64,000 nt of DNA, taken from Oryzomicrobium sp. (GTDB taxonomy: Bacteria > Pseudomonadota > Gammaproteobacteria > Burkholderiales > Rhodocyclaceae). Below, one piece after another: positions 46,853 to 57,612 of the stretch. The stretch's first letter is position 1; the number at the start of each line of letters is the position of its first letter. The stretch spans positions 20,340-84,339 of the forward strand of contig NZ_JAJTBG010000007.1 of the NCBI RefSeq assembly GCF_021287045.1. Direction: 5' to 3'. Under the pieces are notes generated by a model, which saw only the letters and a list, made by a program, of their open reading frames with translations, was not told the DNA's origin and ran no database searches. The position numbers and the translations under genes were made by a program.

Positions 46853-48403
46853 TCACTCCGCGCCGCGGCGGCGGAAGTCCCTCATTCTAAAGCCCAGGGC
46901 GAACAAGGTGGCAAAGTAGGCCAGGACGCCGCCGCACACCAGCAGCACCAGGCGCACCAGGCGCTCGGCGCCGCCCATGGTCAGCCAGGCGGCTTCCGGG
47001 CCGCTGCCGACCCACAGGGCGGCAGCGAGCACCGCCAGGGCGATAGCCAGCTTGGCGGTGAACGGGCGCCAGCCGGCCTGGGGGGTGAAGATGTCGTGGC
47101 GGCGCAGACCGCGGTAGAGCAAGAAGGCGTTGAAGCAGGCGGCCAGGCCGATGGACAGGGCCAGGCCGGCATGTTTGAGGTGCCAGATGAAGGCCAGGTT
47201 CATCAACTGGGTGGCGGTCAGGGACACCAGGGCGATCTTCACCGGGGTCTTGACGTTCTGCCGGGCGTAGAAGCCCGGGGCCAGCACCTTGACCAGGATC
47301 AGGCCGGTCAGGCCGACGCTGTAGGCCACCAGGGCGGAACGGGTGGCCAGCACGTCGTGGGCGCCGAAGGCGCCGTGCTGGAACAGGGTCGAGACGAGGG
47401 GCACGCCCAGCACCGCCAGGCCCACGGCGGCGGGCAGGGTGAGCAAGAGGCACAGGCGCAGGCCCCAGTCGAGCAGGCGGCTGTATTCGTCGTGGTTGCC
47501 GTCGGCGTGGTAGCGGGACAGGGAGGGCAGCAGGATGGTGCCCAGGGCCACGCCGAGCATGCCGGAGGGAAACTCCATCAGCCGGTCGGCGTAGTACAGC
47601 CAGGACACCGAGCCGTTCTCCAGGAACGAAGCGAAGATGGTGTTGATGAGCAGGCTGACCTGGGACACCGACACCCCCACCACCGCCGGGGCCATCAGCT
47701 TGAGCAGGCGGCGCACGCCCTCGTCGCGGAAGCACACCAGGGGGTTGATCCACAGCCGGGGCAGCAGGTCCAGTTTCTTCAGGGCCGGCACCTGGATCGC
47801 CAGTTGCAAAAAGCCGCCGATGAACACCGCCCAGGCCAGGGCCAGCACCGGCGGATCGAAGTGGGGCGCGGCGAACAGGGCCATGACGATGAACGAGACG
47901 TTCAGCATCACCGGGGTGAAGGCCGGCAGGGCGAAGCGGCTCCAGGTGTTGAGGATGCCGGCGGCCAGGGCCGTCAGGGACATGAAGAAGATGTAGGGGA
48001 AGGCGATCCGGGTCAGGGTCACCGTCAGTTGCATCTTCTGCGCGTCGTCGGCGAAGCCCGGGGCGGACACCCAGACCACGTAGAAGGAGCCGGCCATGCC
48101 GATCAGGGTGACCAGCAGCACCACCAGGGCCAGGGCGCTGGCGACCCGGTCTACCAGGAGCTTGGTGGCCTCGTGGCCGCGCCGGTTGCGGTATTCGCCC
48201 AGGAGCGGCACGAAGGCTTGGGAGAAGGCGCCCTCGGCGAACAGGCGGCGCAGCAGGTTGGGCAGCTTGAAGGCGACGAAGAAGGCGTCGGTGGCCAGCC
48301 CGGCGCCGAAGGCCCGGGCGATGGCGAAGTCCCGGGCGAAGCCGAGGACGCGGGAAAGCAGGGTCATGCCGCTGACCGTGGCCAGCGCTCGCAAAAGGTT
48401 CAT
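46853..48403 (-). CDS. murJ: Lipid II flippase MurJ
   Basis: 516-residue integral membrane protein with about 14 transmembrane helices that flips lipid II across the inner membrane for peptidoglycan synthesis. The N-terminal [17 protein letters not shown] and [23 protein letters not shown] blocks carry the conserved Arg and Asp residues of the MOP superfamily flippase. Normal length. The ATG at 48403 gives the standard [14 protein letters not shown] start. Confidence 0.95.
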
Positions 48404-48555
48404 GGGAAGCGGGGGGCGTTTTATGGGCGCCCGGGCCGGAGCGGCAGGGGTGCGGGGGGCCGGGCGCCGGCCCCGCTCCGGAGCGGGCAGCGCATCTTAG
48501 CAGCCCGCCGCCGTTCCCGCTGCCCGGCCGCCTGCCGCCGCAGCGGCCGGGGCGC

Positions 48556-49434
48556 TCAGTCCGTCAGCCCCTGGCGGCCCACGTAATCCCGGGCGAACTG
48601 GTAGGCCACCCGGCCGCTGCGGGCGCCCCGCTCGGCGCTCCAGGCCAGGGCCTCGCGCCGGGCGGCGGCGGCCTTGGCGCCCTTGGGGCGGCTGCCCAGG
48701 TGTTCGACCCAGTGCAGGGCGATGGCCAGGTATTCGTCCTCGGAGAGGGGGTAGAACACCAGGCGCAGGCCGAAGCGCTCGGCCAGGGATATTTTTTCTT
48801 CCACCGCGTCGCCGGGGTGCAGCTCGCCGCTGCCGTTGTCGGCGCTGTGGTAACCCAGGTTGTCGCTGGCGTTCTCGGCCACCAGGTGGCGGCGGTTGGA
48901 GGTGGCGTAGATCAGCACGTTGTCGCCGGGGGCGCCCAGGGAACCGTCCAGGGCCACCTTGAGGGACTTGTAGCCGGTGTCGCCGGCGTCGAAGGACAGG
49001 TCGTCGAGAAAGAGGATGAAGCGCTCCGGCCGGTCGCGCAGCAGCTCGATCACGTCCGGCAGGTCGTCCAGATGCTGGCGGTCGATTTCCACCAGGCGCA
49101 GCCCCTGGCGGCGGTGGCGGGCGACCATGGCCTTGACCAGGGAGGACTTGCCGGTGCCCCGGGCCCCGGCCAGCAGCACGTGGTTGGCCGGCAGCCCGGC
49201 GACGAACTGGGCAGTGTTGCGTTCCACCAGTTGCTGCTCCCGGGTCAGGCCCACCAGCTCCGGCGCGGCATCCAGGGCGTCGTCGCGCAGGGCCTCCAGG
49301 CTGCCCAGGCTGCGCCGCCGGCGCCAGGCGAAGGCGCAGGAGGCGTTCCAGTCGGGGGCCTGGGGGCGGCCGGTGAGAAAGGTTTCCGCCAGGTCCAGGA
49401 TGCGGTCCAGGCGCAGCAGGGTGTCGTTTGCCAT
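48556..49434 (-). CDS. DUF815-type ATP-binding protein
   Basis: About 292-residue AAA-like ATPase. Walker A is LLAGARGTGKSSLVKA, Walker B is FILFLDDLSFD, and the block LIYATSNRRHLVAE is typical of DUF815 proteins. The function is unknown. ATG 49434 is given; a GTG three codons upstream (49443) has a better-spaced GGAG (6 nt) and may be the true start. It lies between murJ and the TRAP genes; a terminator separates it from the TRAP genes upstream. Confidence 0.85.
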   Translation of the reverse strand: MANDTLLRLDRILDLAETFLTGRPQAPDWNASCAFAWRRRRSLGSLEALRDDALDAAPELVGLTREQQLVERNTAQFVAGLPANHVLLAGARGTGKSSLVKAMVARHRRQGLRLVEIDRQHLDDLPDVIELLRDRPERFILFLDDLSFDAGDTGYKSLKVALDGSLGAPGDNVLIYATSNRRHLVAENASDNLGYHSADNGSGELHPGDAVEEKISLAERFGLRLVFYPLSEDEYLAIALHWVEHLGSRPKGAKAAAARREALAWSAERGARSGRVAYQFARDYVGRQGLTD

Positions 49435-49472
49435 GCGCTCCACGTTGTGCTCCGTCGTTGCGTGGGAAGAAG

Positions 49473-49496
49473 AAAAAACCCCCGCCGGAGCGGGGG
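49473..49496 (-). terminator. Intrinsic terminator after dctM
   Basis: On the minus strand CCCCCGC, TCCG, GCGGGGG and six T. It closes the malonate/TRAP operon and separates it from the DUF815 gene. Confidence 0.85.
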
Positions 49497-49520
49497 AAGG
49501 GGGGTAGTTTAAGGGAACTG

Positions 49521-50888
49521 TCAGCCGCCGCCGGGCAGGGTCGCCGGCCCCATGACGAGGTCGGGGAACCAGGTGGCGATGCCGGGGAAGAGGCAGAGCA
49601 GGGCGACGGCGACGAACATCAGTCCGACGAAGGGCATGACGCCCCAGATGACGTCCTTCAAGGGAATGTCCGGCGCCACGTTCTTGATGACGAAGATGTT
49701 GAGGCCCACCGGCGGGTGGATCAGGCCCATCTCCATGACCACGGTCATCACCACGCCGAACCAGATCAGGTCGAAGCCGGCGGCCTTGAGCGGCGGCAGG
49801 ATGATCGGGGCGGTCATCAGGATGATCGACACCGGCGGCAGGAAGAAGCCCAGGCCGATCACCATGGTGAGGATGGTGGCGAGCAGCACCCACTTGGAGA
49901 GTTGCAATCCGACGATCCACTCCGCCGCCGACTGGCTGATGTGCAGGTAGCTCATCACGTAGGAGTAGAGGAGGGACATGCCGATGATGAACATCAGCAT
50001 GGTCGATTCCTTGAGGGTGCTCGACAGGATCGGGGTCAGCTGGCGCGGGCGCCACAGGCCATAGACCAGGGCGATCAGGCCCAGGGCCAGCACCCCGCCC
50101 AGGCCGGCGGTCTCGGACGGCGTGGCGTAGCCGCCGTAGAGGGCCACCATCACGCCGATCAAGAGCACCACGAAGGGCAGCACCCGGGGCAGCATGCGGG
50201 TCTTGTCGGCCAGGGTCATGTTCAGCTCGTCCAGGTAGGCCGACTTCGGCCCCCCTGCCCGGTAGACGTCCAGGGCCTGGTTGTATTCCTTCTTGTAGCG
50301 CCAGGCCGCGTAGCCGGCGAACAGGCCCACCAGCAGCAGGCCCGGACCCACCCCGGCGAGGAACAGGCGCCCCAGGGACTGCTCGGCGGCCACCGCGAAC
50401 AGGATCATGGTGATCGACGGCGGCAGCAGGATGCCCAGGGTGCCGCCGGCGGCGATGATCCCGGCGGCGAAGCCCGGCGAATAGCCCCGGGCGCGCATCT
50501 CGGGGATGCCGGCGCTGCCGATGGCCGAACAGGTGGCCGGGCTGGAGCCGGCCATGGCGGCGAACAGGGCGCAGGCGAACACGTTGGCGATGCCCAGGCC
50601 GCCGGGGATCTTGTGCATCCAGGCGTGGATCGCCGAATACAGGTCGGCGCCGGCGCGGGACTTGCCGATGGCGGCCCCTTTGAGGATGAACAGGGGGATC
50701 GACAGCAGGGTGATGCTGGCCATTTCCTCATAGACGTTCTGGGTGACCGTATCCAGGGCGGAGCCGGGCATGAAGAAGAACATGAAGACGACGGCGATCA
50801 GCCCCAGGGCGAAGGCGATGGGCATGCCCGAGAACATCAGCAGCAAGGTGCCCAGGCCGTAGAGGGTTCCGACGAGGCTCTCGCTCAT
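49521..50888 (-). CDS. dctM: TRAP transporter large permease (DctM)
   Basis: 455-residue membrane protein with about 12 hydrophobic segments, the main transport subunit of a tripartite ATP-independent periplasmic transporter driven by the sodium gradient. Family blocks: AMAGSSPATCSAIGSAGIPEM and GGTLGILLPPSITMILFAV. The ATG at 50888 overlaps the dctQ stop (ATGA). Linkage to matB suggests malonate or a related small dicarboxylate as substrate. Confidence 0.93.
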   Translation of the reverse strand: MSESLVGTLYGLGTLLLMFSGMPIAFALGLIAVVFMFFFMPGSALDTVTQNVYEEMASITLLSIPLFILKGAAIGKSRAGADLYSAIHAWMHKIPGGLGIANVFACALFAAMAGSSPATCSAIGSAGIPEMRARGYSPGFAAGIIAAGGTLGILLPPSITMILFAVAAEQSLGRLFLAGVGPGLLLVGLFAGYAAWRYKKEYNQALDVYRAGGPKSAYLDELNMTLADKTRMLPRVLPFVVLLIGVMVALYGGYATPSETAGLGGVLALGLIALVYGLWRPRQLTPILSSTLKESTMLMFIIGMSLLYSYVMSYLHISQSAAEWIVGLQLSKWVLLATILTMVIGLGFFLPPVSIILMTAPIILPPLKAAGFDLIWFGVVMTVVMEMGLIHPPVGLNIFVIKNVAPDIPLKDVIWGVMPFVGLMFVAVALLCLFPGIATWFPDLVMGPATLPGGG

Positions 50889-51451
50889 GCGACCTCCTTG
50901 GATGCGGCGACGTGGGAGAAATAGGACAGGGTCTGCACCAGCAGCTGGAGGGCCAACAGCGTCATGCCCGTGGCCATCAGGCCGTAGGGAATCCACAGGG
51001 GCGGCGCCCAGGCCGACGAGGTGGTCTGGCCCTCGACGAAGGCCTCGTGGAAGAGGGTCCAGGACTTCCAGGCGAAGAAGGTGCAGAAGAGGCAGGAGGC
51101 GGCATCGCAGAACAGGCGGCGCAGCCGGTCGGCCCAGGGGGGCAGCAGGCTGGCCAGGGACTCGATGCCGACGTGGCTGCGTTGTTCCTGCACGTAGGCG
51201 CCGCACAGGAAGGTGGCACCGACCAGGAGGAAGACGGCGGCCTCGTCCTGCCAGTCGGTGGGCACGTGCAGGTAGTAGCGCAGGAAGACGCTGCCGGTGA
51301 GGACGAGGGCGGCGGCCAGCAGGGCCAGCATGGACAGGCCGAGGATGGCCCGGTTGAGCCCGGCCAGCCCCCGGGCCGCCAACCCGGTCAGGCCCCCGGC
51401 CGGCGGGGGCGTTGCCGGCTTGAGGCCTTCCAGTTCGAAACCGTGGCTCAT
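50885..51451 (-). CDS. dctQ: TRAP transporter small permease (DctQ)
   Basis: 188-residue membrane protein with four hydrophobic segments and the family pattern RYYLHVPTDWQDEAAVFLLVGATFLCGAYVQEQRSHVGIE. It pairs with DctM. It overlaps dctP upstream and dctM downstream by 4 bp each, so the three are translationally coupled. Confidence 0.9.
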   Translation of the reverse strand: MSHGFELEGLKPATPPPAGGLTGLAARGLAGLNRAILGLSMLALLAAALVLTGSVFLRYYLHVPTDWQDEAAVFLLVGATFLCGAYVQEQRSHVGIESLASLLPPWADRLRRLFCDAASCLFCTFFAWKSWTLFHEAFVEGQTTSSAWAPPLWIPYGLMATGMTLLALQLLVQTLSYFSHVAASKEVA

Positions 51452-52494
51452 CCGGTCACCTTTTCGGCCAGTTGCAGGAAGCGGGCGCAATTGGGCGATT
51501 TGGCGGCGTAGTCCTTCCAGGCGCTGTCCCGGGCGATGGCGCGCCACTTGTCGACGGTGGCGGCGTCCAGGTCGTAGGTCTTGGCGCCGGCCTTCTGGTA
51601 CACCGTGGCCACGTTGCGGTCGTCGGTCTTCACCGCGTCCAGGCCGTACTTCTCGATCTCGGCGCCGACCTGGAGGATCAGGGTCTGCTGGTCCTTGGGC
51701 AGCTTCTCGAACACGGCCCGGGACATCAGCAGCGGCACGGCCATGAACCAGAACGACTTGCTGCGGCCGGTGGTGAGGTGCTTGGAGACTTCTTCCAGTC
51801 GGAACGACAGCAGGCTGGTGGAAGAGGTGATGACCGAATCCACGGCGCCGGTCTGCATGGCGGCGTACAGCTCGTTGGAAGGCAGGGTGACCACGGCGGA
51901 GCCGGCGGCCTTGAGCATCAGGTCCACTTCCCGGCTGCCGCCGCGGATCTTCATGCCCTTGACGTCGTCCGGGGTGATCACCGGCTTGGTCTTGCTGGCG
52001 ATGCTGCCCGCTTCCCACACCCAGGTGATGGGTACGGCGCCCTTGTCGAACAGCAGGTCGTTGAGGGCCTTGCCGATCTCGCCGTTCTTCCAGGCGAAGC
52101 CTTGCTCGTAGGAGGTGACCAGGCCCGGCATCAGGGCGATGTTCAGCTCGGGCACCTCGCCGCCGGCGTAGGAGATGGGGAAGAAGCTCATGTCCAGGGC
52201 GCCGCGCCGCAGGGCGCTGAACTGGGCGTTGGTCTTCATCAGGGACGAGCCCGGATAGACGTTGAACTTGAGCGCCCCGCCGGAGCGCTTTTCCACCTCG
52301 GCGGCGAAGATGCGGCAGATGCGGTCGCGGAAGTCGCCGTCGTTGCCGGTGGAGCCGGGGAACTGGTGGGAGATCTTGAGGGCCGTGGAATTCTGGGCGA
52401 AGGCATTGCCGGAGAGCCCGGACAGGCCCACCAGGGGCAGGCTGGCCAGGGTGCCGCAGACCAGGCGGCGGGTGGGGTTGAAGGCTTGAGTCAT
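51448..52494 (-). CDS. dctP: TRAP transporter substrate-binding protein (DctP)
   Basis: 348-residue periplasmic solute-binding protein. Signal peptide with a TRRLVCG motif that resembles a Tat signal, cleaved near GNAFAQ. The DctP core includes KISHQFPGSTGNDGDFRDRICRIF, MKIRGGSREVDLMLKAAGS (the conserved substrate-binding Arg) and TGAVDSVITSSTS. A purine-rich GGAGGAG precedes ATG 52494. Malonate as ligand is inferred from the adjoining matB. Confidence 0.92.
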   Translation of the reverse strand: MTQAFNPTRRLVCGTLASLPLVGLSGLSGNAFAQNSTALKISHQFPGSTGNDGDFRDRICRIFAAEVEKRSGGALKFNVYPGSSLMKTNAQFSALRRGALDMSFFPISYAGGEVPELNIALMPGLVTSYEQGFAWKNGEIGKALNDLLFDKGAVPITWVWEAGSIASKTKPVITPDDVKGMKIRGGSREVDLMLKAAGSAVVTLPSNELYAAMQTGAVDSVITSSTSLLSFRLEEVSKHLTTGRSKSFWFMAVPLLMSRAVFEKLPKDQQTLILQVGAEIEKYGLDAVKTDDRNVATVYQKAGAKTYDLDAATVDKWRAIARDSAWKDYAAKSPNCARFLQLAEKVTG

Positions 52495-52555
52495 GGTCTC
52501 CTCCATTGGGATGGATGTGATGGATCGGTTGGGGTTGGGGTGGGGTGGCCGGCTG

Positions 52556-54073
52556 TTAGGCAGCCGTGCCGGTTTTTCCGTAGGTGTCGCGCAGCACGTT
52601 CTTGAGCACCTTGCCCATGGCGTTGCGCGGCAGTTCGGTGACGAAGTGGACGTGCTTGGGCACCTTGTAATTGGCCAGCTGGCCTTTGAGGGGCGTGATG
52701 ATGCCATCGCTGGCGAGGCTTTCGTCCTTGCGCACCACCACGGCGGTGACGGCCTCGCCGAAGTCCCGGTCGGGCACACCGATCACGGCGGATTCGACCA
52801 CGCCGGGCAGGGCGTCGATGGCCATTTCCACTTCCTTGGGATAGACGTTGTAGCCGCCGGAGATCACCAGATCCTTGGCCCGGCCGACGATGGTCAGGTA
52901 GCCGTCGGCGCTCAGGGTGCCCAGGTCGCCGGTGCGGAACCAGCCGTCGGCGGTGAACTCCTCGGCGGTCTTCTCCGGCTTGCGCCAGTAGCCCTTCATC
53001 ACGCCGCTGCCGCGGATCTGGATGCCGCCCACCTGGTCGGCGGCCAGGGGCCGGTCGTCGCCGTCGGCGATGCGCACCTCGACCCCGTCGATGGCCAGGC
53101 CCACCGAGCCGATGCGCCGTTCGCCGGCGAAGGGGTTGGAGGCGATGATGGCCGACTCGGTCATGCCGTAGCGTTCCAGCACGATCTGGCCGGTGCGCTG
53201 CTCGAATTCCCGGTTGGTTTCCGCCAGCAGGGGGGCCGAGCCGGAGATGAAAACGCGCATGTTGGCGGCGCTGGCGGCGGTGAAGCCGGGCTGGTCGAGC
53301 AGCCGGGTGTAGAAGGTGGGCACCCCCACCATCACCGTGGCCTGGGGCAGCAGGGCCAGCACCTGCTCGGCGTTGAACTTCTTGAGGAACAGGATGCGGC
53401 TCTTCGACAGCAGGGCGCAGTGGCTGGAGATGAACAGGCCGTGGGCGTGGAACAGGGGCAGGGCGTGGAGCAGCACGTCCTTCTCGGTGAAGCCCCACAG
53501 CTTGGTCAGGGCGCGGCCGTTGCTGAGCAGGTTGGCGTGGGTGAGCATGGCCCCCTTGGGGCGGCCGGTGGTGCCCGAGGTGTAGATGATGATGGCCACG
53601 TCGTCGGGCTGGGCGGTGGCGGTGGCGAAGACGTCCGATTCGCCGGCGGCCAGGGCGGTCAGGCTGCCGCTGCCGTCATCGGCCAGGGTCAGGCAGTGGG
53701 CCACGCCGTGGCGGGCGGCCAGCTCGCTCTTCACGGCGTGGTCGGCCGGGGCGCAGACGAAGACGCGGGGTTCGGCGTCTTCCAGGAAGTATTGCAGCTC
53801 GCCCAGCTGGTAGGCGGTGTTGAGGGGCAGGTAAATGGCACCCAGGCGCAGGGTGGCCAGGTAGAGGCAGAAGTTCTGTGCCGACTTGTCCACCTGGACC
53901 GCCACCCGGTCGCCGGGCTGGACGCCCAGGCGGGTCAGGGTGTTGGCGTAGCGGGCGGTCAGGCCGAGCATGTCGGCGTAGCTGATGACCTGGCCGTCGT
54001 CGGTTTCGAGGAAGGGCGCCTGGCCGGCGTCCCGGGCGATGGCTTCGAAAGTGGCGAAGATATTGGCGTTCAT
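52556..54073 (-). CDS. matB: Malonyl-CoA synthetase
   Basis: 505-residue ANL-superfamily ligase that activates malonate to malonyl-CoA with ATP. AMP-binding motif YTSGTTGRPKGAMLTHANL, the A5 motif ERYGMTES, A7 GWFRTGDLG, A8 IVGRAKDLVISGGYNVYPKEVE and the C-terminal catalytic lysine region MGKVLKNVLRD. The ATG 54073 matches the short MatB N-terminus MNANIFATFEA. A close homologue acting on methylmalonate or another acid is possible, but the TRAP and decarboxylase-like neighbours favour malonate. Confidence 0.9.
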   Translation of the reverse strand: MNANIFATFEAIARDAGQAPFLETDDGQVISYADMLGLTARYANTLTRLGVQPGDRVAVQVDKSAQNFCLYLATLRLGAIYLPLNTAYQLGELQYFLEDAEPRVFVCAPADHAVKSELAARHGVAHCLTLADDGSGSLTALAAGESDVFATATAQPDDVAIIIYTSGTTGRPKGAMLTHANLLSNGRALTKLWGFTEKDVLLHALPLFHAHGLFISSHCALLSKSRILFLKKFNAEQVLALLPQATVMVGVPTFYTRLLDQPGFTAASAANMRVFISGSAPLLAETNREFEQRTGQIVLERYGMTESAIIASNPFAGERRIGSVGLAIDGVEVRIADGDDRPLAADQVGGIQIRGSGVMKGYWRKPEKTAEEFTADGWFRTGDLGTLSADGYLTIVGRAKDLVISGGYNVYPKEVEMAIDALPGVVESAVIGVPDRDFGEAVTAVVVRKDESLASDGIITPLKGQLANYKVPKHVHFVTELPRNAMGKVLKNVLRDTYGKTGTAA

Positions 54074-54125
54074 GGCGTTGGGGTTGGGTATGCGGGCGTT
54101 GCGGAGCTGGCCCTTGTTATGAAAA

Positions 54126-55301
54126 TCAGGCCAGTGCGCTGACGGTGTCGGCCACACCGAATTCGGCGTAGTGGGCGAAGTCGGCGCTGGCGTTGGTGCT
54201 GGCGGCATCCGGACGGGTGAGGATGCTGTCGAGGGAGGTCTGGGGCAGGGTGCGTACGCTGCCGCCGGGGGCGATGTCCACCGACGAGGCGGCGCCGGCG
54301 GCGGCGATGTAGATGCCGCCGGAAATCTCGCCGGCGATGCGCAGGCGCACTTCCTGCCCGTTGCCCACCCGGCGGCGCAGGGTGCGGGCGAGGTGGACCA
54401 GGTACTGGGTGAGGATCAGGGCCTCGTCGCCCAGGCGCACGCTGTGGCCGGCACAATCGAGCAGCAGTTCCAGGGGGGCGGCGGCGCTTTCGGCCAGGGT
54501 GGCGAGCTTGAGCACGTCGGCGGCGCCGACGAATGCCCGGCCCCGGCAGGCCAGGGGGCCCGGCACCGCATCGAAGCCGGTGAGGGCGGCCGGCGGCGGC
54601 GCCGCTTCGTTCAGCCCATGGCCGAGGCGCTGGGCCAGGCGGCGGCGCTCGTCGTCCAGACCGTCGGGCGCTTGCTCCGAGGCGGGCAGAGCCGCCACCC
54701 ACTCGCGCAGGGCGGCGGCGTAGGCCGGCAGGGTGTCGTCGAGCAGGCGTTCGGCGCCGCCGTGGCGGCTGCGTGAACGGCCGTCGATGGCGGCCAGCAC
54801 CGTGGTCCGGTCGCCGCCGCCGGCGCTTTCCAGGACCCGGGGGCCGGACATGGCGAGCAGGGTGCCCGGAGCGTAGCAGCGTTGCCCGGCGGTGAAGGCC
54901 AGCATGCTGGCGCCGCCGAAGACGTTGCGCCCGAGCAGGGAAATCATCGGCAGGCCGTCGAGCCCGGCGTCGAGCAGCTCGGTCATCAGTCCGCGCAGGG
55001 CGCCCTGTATGGGCAGGCCATCGTCGAGCCGGGCGCCGGCGGAATCGATCAGCAGCACCAGGGGCTGCCGGTTTTCCCGGGCGCGGCGGACGGCGCGGCG
55101 CAGATCGGCGCATTCGGCAATGCCGAGCACGCCCTTGTCCCGGGCCGGATCGGTAGCGGCGGCCAGCACCGGGCGGCCCGCGACGCTGCCGTGGGCCAGG
55201 CGCAGGCCGGAGGTGGAGGGGAGGGGGGATTCGGTGCCGGCGTCGAACAGGGCGGTAAGCCGCGCTGCGACGCTGGCGCCGGTGAATCCGGAATGAGGCA
55301 A
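54126..55301 (-). CDS. Fused MdcD/MdcE-like carboxyltransferase (putative malonyl decarboxylase)
   Basis: 391-residue protein with two crotonase-type halves. The first (about 35-190) resembles the malonate decarboxylase beta subunit: LLIDSAGARLDDG, GRNVFGGASMLAF and LAMSGPRVLESAGG. The second (about 250-380) resembles the gamma subunit: LLLDCAGHSVRLG and RIAGEISGGIYIAAAGAAS. No biotinyl, ACP or CoA-transferase subunit gene is nearby, unlike mdc operons. The start is TTG 55301 with a perfect AAGGAGG 7 nt upstream. With MatB it would turn malonyl-CoA into acetyl-CoA; that is inference. Confidence 0.78.
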   Translation of the reverse strand: MPHSGFTGASVAARLTALFDAGTESPLPSTSGLRLAHGSVAGRPVLAAATDPARDKGVLGIAECADLRRAVRRARENRQPLVLLIDSAGARLDDGLPIQGALRGLMTELLDAGLDGLPMISLLGRNVFGGASMLAFTAGQRCYAPGTLLAMSGPRVLESAGGGDRTTVLAAIDGRSRSRHGGAERLLDDTLPAYAAALREWVAALPASEQAPDGLDDERRRLAQRLGHGLNEAAPPPAALTGFDAVPGPLACRGRAFVGAADVLKLATLAESAAAPLELLLDCAGHSVRLGDEALILTQYLVHLARTLRRRVGNGQEVRLRIAGEISGGIYIAAAGAASSVDIAPGGSVRTLPQTSLDSILTRPDAASTNASADFAHYAEFGVADTVSALA

Positions 55302-55373
55302 GACAGTTCCTCCTTGGGGTCGGGGTTGCGTGGCGTTACCGCCGGGCACCGTTTGGTGCTTCTTATGGTTGTT

Positions 55374-55383
55374 CTGGTATGCC
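55374..55383. promoter_or_regulatory. Candidate GntR operator 1
   Basis: TGGTATGCCA inside a wider inverted repeat TTCTGG-TATG-CCAGAA, about 75 bp upstream of the carboxyltransferase start. Matches the FCD-type GntR operator form (TGGT-N2-ACCA) with one change. Confidence 0.6.
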
Positions 55384-55551
55384 AGAATGGCGCCGTCAGT
55401 TGCCGTTGCGCGATGCGCTCTCTCTCTCAATCGGCCTGGAATCGAGGCTGTAAGGCACGGTGATCATGCCGTTCGCGGCCTTCTTTCCGATAAGGGCTGC
55501 CAGATGATTCTGAGGGCGACGCTGCACCGGTTTGGGGCATTGTTGGGTTCA

Positions 55552-55588
55552 ATATATACCAATAATTTTTTTTTGGTATACCAAAAAA
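55552..55588. promoter_or_regulatory. Candidate GntR operators 2 and 3
   Basis: A perfect 20-bp palindrome at 55569-55588 (six T, GGTATACC, six A) contains TGGTATACCA (55574-55583). A partial copy, ATATATACCA (7 of 10), lies at 55552-55561, 22 bp away centre to centre, about two helical turns. Both are upstream of gntR. Confidence 0.65.
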
Positions 55589-55674
55589 TGTTTTTAGTTT
55601 TTCTTGTGGCGCCATGGCTGTGCCAGCAGGAAAAAACTGTATGATTTGCAGGTCATTTATCGGGGTTTGATGCA

Positions 55675-56355
55675 ATGCCACAACAAGAAGGGGGCTCCCA
55701 GGCCGAGCGGATCAGTCGGGCCATCGAGGCCGACATCCTCAACGCCACCTATCCACCTGGGGAGCGGCTGGACGAGCGGCAGCTGGCCGCCCGCTTCGGC
55801 GTATCGCGCACGCCGGTGCGGGAAGCGCTCAACCGGCTGGTGTCCGACGGGCTGGCCGAACACCGGGCCCGCCAGGGAGTGTTCGTTTCGCGCATTTCCC
55901 TGGCCAGCGTGTTCGAGCTGTTCGAAATGCTGGCGGTGATGGAATCGGCCTCGGCGCGCCTCGCGGCGCGGCGCATGAAGCCGGCGGACGTGGCCAAGCT
56001 GCTGGCGGCGGCCCAGGAGACGCTCCAGGCGGCGGCCGACGACGAGGCGGCGGTCTATACCAGCGCCAACACCCGCTTCCATGAATTGATCTATGCCGGC
56101 AGCTGCAACCGCCTGCTGGAAGAATCGGTGAAACAGTTGCGCCGCCGCGCCGAGCCCTACCGGGGGCACATCCACCGGGTGGCCGGACGGCGCACCGCCA
56201 CCGCCCAGGAGCACATGGCCATCGCCGAGGCCATCCGCGACGGCAAGGGCGAGCTGGCGGCGGATCTGATGTTCCAGCACCTGGACATCCACCGTCCCGA
56301 GTTTTCCGATTACGTCTTCATTCTTTCCCGCTCGGTGGAGGGCGCCCTGTCGTGA
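55675..56355 (+). CDS. GntR-family (FCD) transcriptional regulator of malonate use
   Basis: 226-residue regulator. Winged helix-turn-helix at about 11-75 (GERLDERQLAARFGVSRTPVREALNRL) and an all-helical FCD ligand-binding domain (about 85-215) with the metal/ligand His residues in NTRFHELIYAGS and AQEHMAIAEAI. It is divergent from the carboxyltransferase-matB-dctPQM operon, the same arrangement as MatR in rhizobial mat loci. Probably represses the operon until malonate or malonyl-CoA binds. Confidence 0.9.
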   Translation: MPQQEGGSQAERISRAIEADILNATYPPGERLDERQLAARFGVSRTPVREALNRLVSDGLAEHRARQGVFVSRISLASVFELFEMLAVMESASARLAARRMKPADVAKLLAAAQETLQAAADDEAAVYTSANTRFHELIYAGSCNRLLEESVKQLRRRAEPYRGHIHRVAGRRTATAQEHMAIAEAIRDGKGELAADLMFQHLDIHRPEFSDYVFILSRSVEGALS

Positions 56356-56462
56356 GGGGTGCCGCGGCACCGCTGCGAAAAGACGCTTGATCCATCGAGG
56401 AAAAGCCGGTATATTCCGGCCTCTTTAGCAAAACCACCCTATCTTTTTTAGGAACGAATTCC

Positions 56463-56735
56463 ATGGCCAATAGCGCACAAGCTCGCAAACGCGCGCGTCA
56501 AGCCGAAAAGCAACGCGCCCACAACGCCAGCCTGCGCTCGACGCTGCGTACTGCGATCAAAAAGGTGCGCAAGGCGATCGACGCGGGTGACAAGGCAGCT
56601 GCTCAAGCGGTGTTTCAAGAGTCTGTGTCGGTGATCGACAGCATCGCCGACAAGCGGATTGTTCACAAGAACAAGGTCTCCCGCCACAAGAGCCGCCTGT
56701 CCGCCCAGATCAAGGCGATGGCTGCCGCTGCCTAA
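56463..56735 (+). CDS. rpsT: 30S ribosomal protein S20
   Basis: 90-residue helical ribosomal protein that binds 16S rRNA. Starts [23 protein letters not shown], with the conserved basic N-terminus and the [20 protein letters not shown] tail. Own promoter region upstream (AT-rich 56400-56460) and a terminator downstream. Confidence 0.97.
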
Positions 56736-56773
56736 CCGGCTCCGACAGCACGCTGCGCCAAGGCGCAGCCAAG

Positions 56774-56803
56774 AAAAACGGCACCCCAGGGTGCCGTTTT
56801 TTT
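56774..56803. terminator. Intrinsic terminator after rpsT
   Basis: ACGGCACC, CCAG loop, GGTGCCGT with seven T after it and a flanking A-run before it. The A-run may let it also act on the convergent DUF3579 gene. Confidence 0.9.
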
Positions 56804-56852
56804 ATGCGCGTTTTCCGGGAAGGTAGGGCGCTGAGCCGGGACCCGCCGTGCT

Positions 56853-57158
56853 TCAGTTGGCCGGGCGCTCGCAGCCTTCCACCAGTTGCAGCTCGTTGTC
56901 GGCGGCGAAGTTGCGCAGGAAGCGGTAGGCCAGGGGTTCTATGTCGTAGAGCTGGCCGTCGACGAAGACGGCCTTTTCGCCGGAGCTGGAGCAGGGGCCG
57001 ACGTAGGGGGAGTACTTCATGCGCTTTTCGGCGCCGAAGGCGGACATGACGCCGCAGAGCCGCTCTGCCCAGTCGCTGGGGCGGAACCGCCGGCCTTCGT
57101 GGGTCAGGCCGACGATGATGAAGTTGCGTGCGGTGGTGTCCGCGTTGTGATCCGTCAT
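56853..57158 (-). CDS. DUF3579-family protein
   Basis: 101-residue small protein found mainly in Betaproteobacteria; contains NFIIVGLTHEGRRFRPSDWAERLCGVM and YSPYVGPC, which define the family. Function unknown. ATG 57158 is used; an in-frame start further upstream would add an unconserved tail. Convergent with rpsT. Confidence 0.85.
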   Translation of the reverse strand: MTDHNADTTARNFIIVGLTHEGRRFRPSDWAERLCGVMSAFGAEKRMKYSPYVGPCSSSGEKAVFVDGQLYDIEPLAYRFLRNFAADNELQLVEGCERPAN

Positions 57159-57396
57159 GGTGCTCACTTGGTGGCGCGCGTGGGGCTGTCTCCGAAGCCC
57201 TGTCCTTCCGTGCCGATCCTGCGCGCCGGGAGGAGGTGTGGGCGCTTTTTTCGATGCGGATTCTAGCAGAGTCACGCCCCTCCGGGGAGGCGCCGTTTCA
57301 TCTGCCGCGAACGGCTTTTGCCCAGCAAAATGCGTTGCGCATTTCGTGACGGCTGCCTATACTCGCCTATCGCCCTGAACCGGTTAAGGTTTTTCC

Positions 57397-57612
57397 GTGC
57401 AACCTCTGCTCGTGACCAAATACGGCTTTCGCATTCGCACCCGGCATGGCGGGGTAGTGGACAATCTGCTCATCTACGGCCGCGACGAGCAGGAGGCGGT
57501 GACCAAGCTGCGCCAGATCTACCACGATTGCGAGGTGCTGGAGACGCGCCGCCAGGTCGGCGGCGGCCGTCACGCCGCGGCCTGCCTGGATGCCCTGGCG
57601 GAAGCCGGCTGA
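57397..57612 (+). CDS. Small conserved hypothetical protein
   Basis: 71-residue protein with a GTG start at 57397 (VTKYGFRIRTRHGGVVDNLLIYGRDEQEAVTKLRQIYHDCEVLETR). I do not recognise a named family. It looks like a single small alpha/beta domain: two beta-strand-like stretches and a helix. It lies alone between the divergent DUF3579 gene and argD. Codon usage resembles its neighbours, so it is likely real. Confidence 0.6.
   Translation: MQPLLVTKYGFRIRTRHGGVVDNLLIYGRDEQEAVTKLRQIYHDCEVLETRRQVGGGRHAAACLDALAEAG

Follow-up and report, generated by a model that had tools for sequence, protein, structure and literature searches.

We propose, with a probability of about 70%, that a 391-amino acid (aa) protein encoded in a 64,000-nucleotide (nt) stretch of an Oryzomicrobium sp. 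genome (the window) is a self-contained malonyl-CoA decarboxylase that would require neither biotin nor acyl carrier protein (ACP). This protein, labeled FUS together with its homologues, joins MdcD-like and MdcE-like crotonase-type domains in one chain and would work directly behind the malonyl-CoA synthetase MatB. Malonate would enter through the TRAP transporter DctPQM, MatB would make malonyl-CoA from it with ATP and CoA, and FUS would bind the free malonyl-CoA between its two halves and split it into CO2 and acetyl-CoA, with no need of MdcA, biotin or the acyl carrier MdcC. The evidence in hand comprises gene order, homology, predicted fold, conservation of an oxyanion-hole position, co-occurrence across genomes and two open frames that join FUS to MatB; we infer the substrate, the reaction, the operator function and that malonate is the acid transported. 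Loci and genomes are labeled L and G, the window's genome being G000.

At positions 49521-56355, a GntR regulator gene on the plus strand diverges from a minus-strand row, FUS-matB-dctP-dctQ-dctM:

54126..55301, minus strand: FUS, 391 aa, single chain with MdcD-like N half and MdcE-like C half, proposed malonyl-CoA decarboxylase (profile, residue and fold matches)
55309..55315, minus strand: AAGGAGG, Shine-Dalgarno sequence of FUS, 7 nt 5' of its start codon, TTG at 55301 (read from the sequence)
52556..54073, minus strand: matB, malonyl-CoA synthetase, 505 aa, 52 base pairs (bp) after FUS (NCBIfam match and gene order)
51448..52494, minus strand: dctP, TRAP solute-binding protein (profile matches and gene order)
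50885..51451, minus strand: dctQ, TRAP small permease (Pfam match and gene order)
49521..50888, minus strand: dctM, TRAP large permease (profile matches and gene order)
55675..56355, plus strand: divergent GntR/FCD regulator (profile matches)

An earlier reading of the letters alone (the sequence-only reading) had named GntR, MatB, DctP, DctQ and DctM, and Pfam and NCBIfam profile matches agree with these identities; MatB reached 752 bits for NF005702 (cut-off 558), which identifies it as the MatB of the mat pathway. The description of FUS as 391 residues with two halves of the crotonase type, one MdcD-like and one MdcE-like, was likewise upheld by its Pfam domains and intact frame.

Domains, fold and residues of FUS

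Two Pfam domains were found in the window FUS above their gathering scores, Carboxyl_trans at residues 29-212 and MdcE at residues 261-361. The MdcE profile (PF06833) gave 41.7 bits against a gathering score of 32.7, with its best stretch in the C half, placing FUS in the Pfam MdcE family, and it matched 36 of the 38 FUS family members of alignment A2 at E 0.001. The Carboxyl_trans domain and the fold together place FUS in the carboxyl transferase superfamily: a predicted-fold search returned a carboxyltransferase as the best match, and the C half was clearly covered by this rank-1 match only. Searching PDB sequences with the C half alone gave no match.

FUS is nevertheless far from canonical MdcD and MdcE. 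The window protein fell far below the cut-off of all five NCBIfam models that it matched, including those for MdcD (NF005530, 55.9 vs 228 bits; TIGR03133, 44.0 vs 278) and MdcE (TIGR03134, 33.4 vs 237, with the best stretch on the N half). The best E-values among the 38 members (1.1e-32 for MdcD and 2.1e-31 for MdcE) imply scores below the cut-offs as well; for comparison, a true MdcD at L120 scored 405 and 371 bits on the two MdcD models. With scores this low, FUS would be overlooked by annotation with the named NCBIfam models.

The closest known system is the MdcD-MdcE pair of the Pseudomonas aeruginosa biotin-independent malonate decarboxylase (PDB 5vip, 5vit and 5vj1; PMC5534430, excerpt), which shares both domains and their order with FUS. 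The Gly162 oxyanion position of MdcD-MdcE is kept in 55/55 FUS members, the Gln100 position is His or Gln in 55/55, and every residue invariant across these 55 members is present in the window FUS. FUS differs in being one chain, in its distance from the equivalog cut-offs, in an operon that lacks MdcA, and in its tie to MatB, which supplies malonyl-CoA rather than malonyl-ACP; the Ser142 position is mostly, and the Tyr102 position always, changed. As excerpted, the 2017 structure paper reports in vitro decarboxylation of free malonyl-CoA by MdcD-MdcE from Acinetobacter and Pseudomonas; it notes that malonyl-CoA resembles the malonyl-ACP arm and leaves the physiological relevance of this activity open (PMC5534430). 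A FUS gene in a MatB operon is what would be expected if that activity had become the main one.

Other known enzymes are less similar. MatA (malonyl-CoA decarboxylase [MCD], PF05292) of the mat pathway shares with FUS the proposed reaction and the place beside MatB; FUS, however, gave Carboxyl_trans and MdcE and no PF05292 match at E 0.01, so it does not belong to the MatA/MCD family. Canonical MdcD and MdcE are themselves fused in a single 508-aa frame in G273 (L099:7191-8717), which scored 337 and 317 bits, above both MdcD cut-offs; its MdcE score of 226 falls short of the 237 required. That protein resembles FUS in being a single chain but has an MdcG-like neighbor (our own reading), in a genome without MatB or MdcA matches. 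Biotin-dependent acyl-CoA carboxyltransferases (AccD/AccA, PccB, MmdA) use carboxybiotin, whereas nothing at the FUS locus suggests biotin.

Linkage of FUS to MatB and occurrence of MatA

Scanning genome contigs with the single protein gave no match, and an alignment-based scan gave 46 loci. After duplicates were merged across searches, 55 distinct FUS rows remained. We left out L057 (Bifidobacterium) as a false match and six truncated loci (L042, L043, L045, L051, L054, L055). L046 (the same gene as L096) was left out because its tblastn match contains a stop, although another search gave an open 423-residue frame. FUS is no isolated oddity but a coherent family in the window's order. No FUS match was found on plasmids, and in a 398-genome draw of the phylum (E 1e-45) the window's own genome alone matched, in the N half only; this no more than hints that FUS is absent outside the order, the other FUS genomes evidently not being in that draw.

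Outside one divergent clade (D), all 47 distinct rows have a same-strand matB downstream of FUS; in one of them (L019) it is a weak, 37%-identical fragment at a contig end. Group A, with the window's arrangement of GntR diverging from FUS-matB-dctPQM, includes the window, L005, L013 and L014; these form one supported clade with L012, whose short contig carries FUS-matB and no GntR or DctP match. Group B has an M20 deacylase ahead of FUS-matB, with peptide-type transporter genes (our reading of L006) or weak Liv-type binding-protein matches in some. Group C reads FAD/Fe-S oxidoreductase-FUS-matB-matA; some of its loci add a BhcA-like aminotransferase and TRAP genes. In the remaining loci outside groups A-D, matB is the only recognized partner. 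ArgE/DapE-type (M20) deacylase genes stand upstream of FUS-matB or of matB in many loci (L006, L015, L016, L089 and others), which hints at N-malonyl compounds as substrates.

In two draft assemblies FUS and MatB form one open frame (L014, 899 aa, from Herbaspirillum autotrophicum; L095, 939 aa). At L095, ATG, GTG and TTG are absent from the 17 codons before the conserved MatB start; L014 retains the MatB ATG, and the fusion there rests on the missing stop. The two loci are far apart on the FUS tree (a quick tree search with several open forks), so the fusion appears to have arisen at least twice on that tree.

To place these loci in context, we searched 300 genomes of the window's order for FUS, MatA and MatB; many are drafts, so absences may be gaps, and the genomes are related, so Fisher p values from these counts overstate independence. 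FUS matches were obtained in 41 genomes, eight of which were removed before counting: G146, G065, G206, G213, G224, G303 and G318 had partial N-half matches only, and G273 is the canonical fusion described above. Four of the 33 kept genomes had partial or split matches; G100 and G183 have full frames (L087, L098), G104 corresponds to L096, and G250 shows two pieces of one frame.

FUS was present in 33 genomes, MatB in 75 and MatA in 68. Every FUS genome carries MatB (33/33). MatA was found in 8/33 FUS genomes, compared with 26/42 MatB genomes without FUS, and in 23 of those 26 no more than 12 kb separates it from MatB. Among the 25 FUS genomes lacking MatA, one (G148) has a broken MdcA match and 24 have none; therefore 24/33 FUS genomes match neither MatA nor MdcA. 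By family, MatA is absent from all 20 FUS genomes of f19 (0/8), f29 (0/8) and f23 (0/4), splits f22 evenly, 4 to 4, and occurs in f48 (2/2), f39 (1/2) and f1 (1/1). In a second, partly overlapping set (21 genomes reached through loci, plus G001), MatA was found in 7/22. Full MdcA was found in 2 of the 21 locus-reached genomes, both isolates (Janthinobacterium fluminis and Herbaspirillum autotrophicum) and neither with a MatA match.

Direct decarboxylation of malonyl-CoA by FUS is plausible given the in vitro activity of MdcD-MdcE (PMC5534430, excerpt), and it is backed by the MatB linkage, the two fused frames and the 24/33 genomes without a MatA or MdcA match.

Competing explanations

Several observations weigh against this proposal. 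The window's genome does contain MatA (PF05292, E 2e-104), on contig 22 rather than the FUS contig, and so does the congener G001. FUS and MatA share an operon at L007, L021, L022, L024, L027, L028, L035 and L049; FUS is thus not a universal replacement of MatA. In group D, a divergent marine clade, FUS adjoins a benzoate-CoA-ligase-family gene rather than MatB, together with a Liv-type binding protein; MatB lies elsewhere in the genome, beside M20 in the one genome examined (L089). MatB itself requires neither enzyme, as 16/75 MatB genomes have neither FUS nor MatA. Some residues differ as well: the MdcE Ser142 position is Gly in 38/55 members and Ser in 7/55, the window FUS among them; the Tyr102 position is Tyr in 0/55; and the window FUS has Leu where MdcD has Arg180. 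According to the same excerpt, a Y102F variant is about as active as wild type, and P. aeruginosa MdcD-MdcE has a kcat 14-fold, and a kcat/Km 38-fold, below human MCD (PMC5534430).

At L008:7514-13394 (G054, marine clade), the cluster around FUS is of the benzoate-CoA-ligase/Liv-transporter kind and includes a divergent XRE plus shikimate-kinase-like regulator that resembles BoxR (our reading). In the 16 genomes with neither FUS nor MatA (gene calls and tblastn), MatB mostly stands amid apparently unrelated genes; L104 and L116 show DctPQM-MatB with no decarboxylase seen on the stretch examined. Two such genomes have single-domain enoyl-CoA-hydratase-family genes directly beside matB (L107:8666-9517 and L109:4149-5000), possibly another decarboxylase solution.

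The sequence-only reading had FUS standing in place of MatA, perhaps on a route distinct from both mat and mdc. This describes the operon, where MatB occurs without MatA; it does not describe the genome, and with MatA on contig 22 a distinct route cannot be claimed from the window's genome alone. Of the genes whose presence elsewhere would count against that reading, MatA was found and full-length MdcA (PF16957) was not: the sole match covers 79/546 positions at 33 bits (Pfam cut-off 25.4), and we rejected it as MdcA because its host protein scores best as a FadX/acetate CoA-transferase-like enzyme. The claimed lack of MdcA holds to this extent. FUS has no neighboring gene for a biotin or ACP partner in the window; no MdcC was seen in the operon, with no genome-wide search for it made.

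MatA on another contig, and a FUS lineage with MatA in its operon, leave room for either redundancy or another malonyl-CoA analogue. We consider it unlikely, though the most serious of the alternatives, that FUS acts on an analogue also made by MatB (methylmalonyl-CoA, hydroxymalonyl-CoA or other) while MatA, where present, handles malonyl-CoA. MatB accepts substituted malonates, and in the clade C operons FUS and MatA occur beside proteins resembling glycolate/2-hydroxyglutarate dehydrogenase and the aminotransferase BhcA, neither of which reaches its NCBIfam cut-off. The strongest case for a different or additional substrate comes from these MatA operons and from the partial changes among the malonyl-site residues. 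However, this explanation would leave MatB without a known malonyl-CoA decarboxylase in the 24/33 genomes, and the window TRAP system is related to that of an mdc operon.

Less probable still is that FUS is redundant or decaying in the window's genome, with MatA doing the work. MatA is present there, and among five operon genes compared between congeners FUS shows the lowest conservation (73% vs 91-98%). Yet its frame is intact with a good Shine-Dalgarno sequence, the family's invariant residues are retained, and dN/dS values of 0.29 (L005), 0.36 (L012), 0.48 (L013) and 0.39 (L014) fit purifying selection, at a constraint about as weak as that of matB against L012 (0.35) and weaker than that of other genes in every other comparison. 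Furthermore, MatA adjoins not MatB but a biotin-carboxylase and carboxyltransferase pair of the acyl-CoA-carboxylase type and a methylmalonyl-CoA-epimerase-like gene (below cut-off), apparently a propionyl/methylmalonyl-CoA set.

The window and L005 also diverge unevenly. DNA identity per 400 bases is 0.60-0.88 at 54000-57600 (FUS, GntR and beyond) and 0.83-0.98 at 47600-53600 (from within matB on), with dS of 0.70-0.80 and 0.15-0.20 in the respective tracts, which suggests that one of the two was exchanged.

It seems very improbable that FUS works as a carboxyltransferase or another kind of thioester enzyme dependent on a biotin or acyl-carrier partner encoded elsewhere: its N half and best fold match are of carboxyltransferase type and the genome has a biotin-carrier-like domain (L009:13165-15156), but no such gene adjoins FUS in the window, MatB is the constant partner outside clade D and is twice in one frame with FUS, and OAD_beta (PF03977, the MadB-type membrane subunit of Na+-pumping biotin malonate decarboxylase) matched 0/36 genomes, G000 included.

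In our judgement the decarboxylase assignment probably holds for the family; for the window's genome it is unproven.

Regulation, transport and a possible third malonate route

Two operator-like sites lie between the regulator and FUS:

55570..55587, no strand: 18-bp palindrome TTTTTGGTATACCAAAAA, probable GntR operator (predicted from conservation)
55371..55388, no strand: second operator-like site, reading CTGGCATACCAG on the minus strand

In the same intergenic region, the TTTTTGGTATACCAAAAA palindrome is identical in L005, one base off in L013 and two in L014, and the CTGGCATACCAG site recurs in L005 and L014; the latter was not found in L013, and neither was found in L012. When up to 2 mismatches are allowed, the looser 12-base pattern is no rarity in the window (9 found, 5.4 expected), so the case for operators rests on conservation, not on counts. 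The 2-nt gap in the GT–AC of the window sites fits the MdcY type of FadR-subfamily regulator sites, as given in an excerpt of PMC4494728.

A related GntR-DctPQM set heads an mdc operon (L120) of the Herbaspirillum genome named above, with identities to the window proteins of 78% (DctM), 65% (DctP), 57% (DctQ) and 41% (GntR); this supports malonate as the probable cargo of the window DctPQM. In that operon MdcA, MdcD and MdcE were identified by searches, and MdcC, G, B and H by our own reading of the gene order.

Suvorova et al. reportedly described TRAP transporters and GntR-type regulation for malonate genes in 2012, with mdc and mat said to be the only routes named. In the open-licence PMC literature, none of the matches listed describes an MdcDE-like fusion next to MatB, and no report of catalytic activity was found for any FUS protein. 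We lean slightly towards the view that MatB and a stand-alone malonyl-CoA decarboxylase of the MdcDE type would make up a third aerobic route for malonate, one that would be common in the window's order and in some lineages would be one bifunctional polypeptide converting malonate, CoA and ATP to acetyl-CoA. Uptake for this route may run through several modules: TRAP; an M20 deacylase combined with peptide-type transporters, whose substrates are perhaps N-malonyl compounds; and a set resembling glycolate oxidase, possibly for the entry of substituted malonates. If the decarboxylase assignment is true, the FUS family, with two domains in one chain and MatB following, would answer the question of physiological relevance raised by the malonyl-CoA activity of MdcD-MdcE, and would supply a malonate route independent of MatA.

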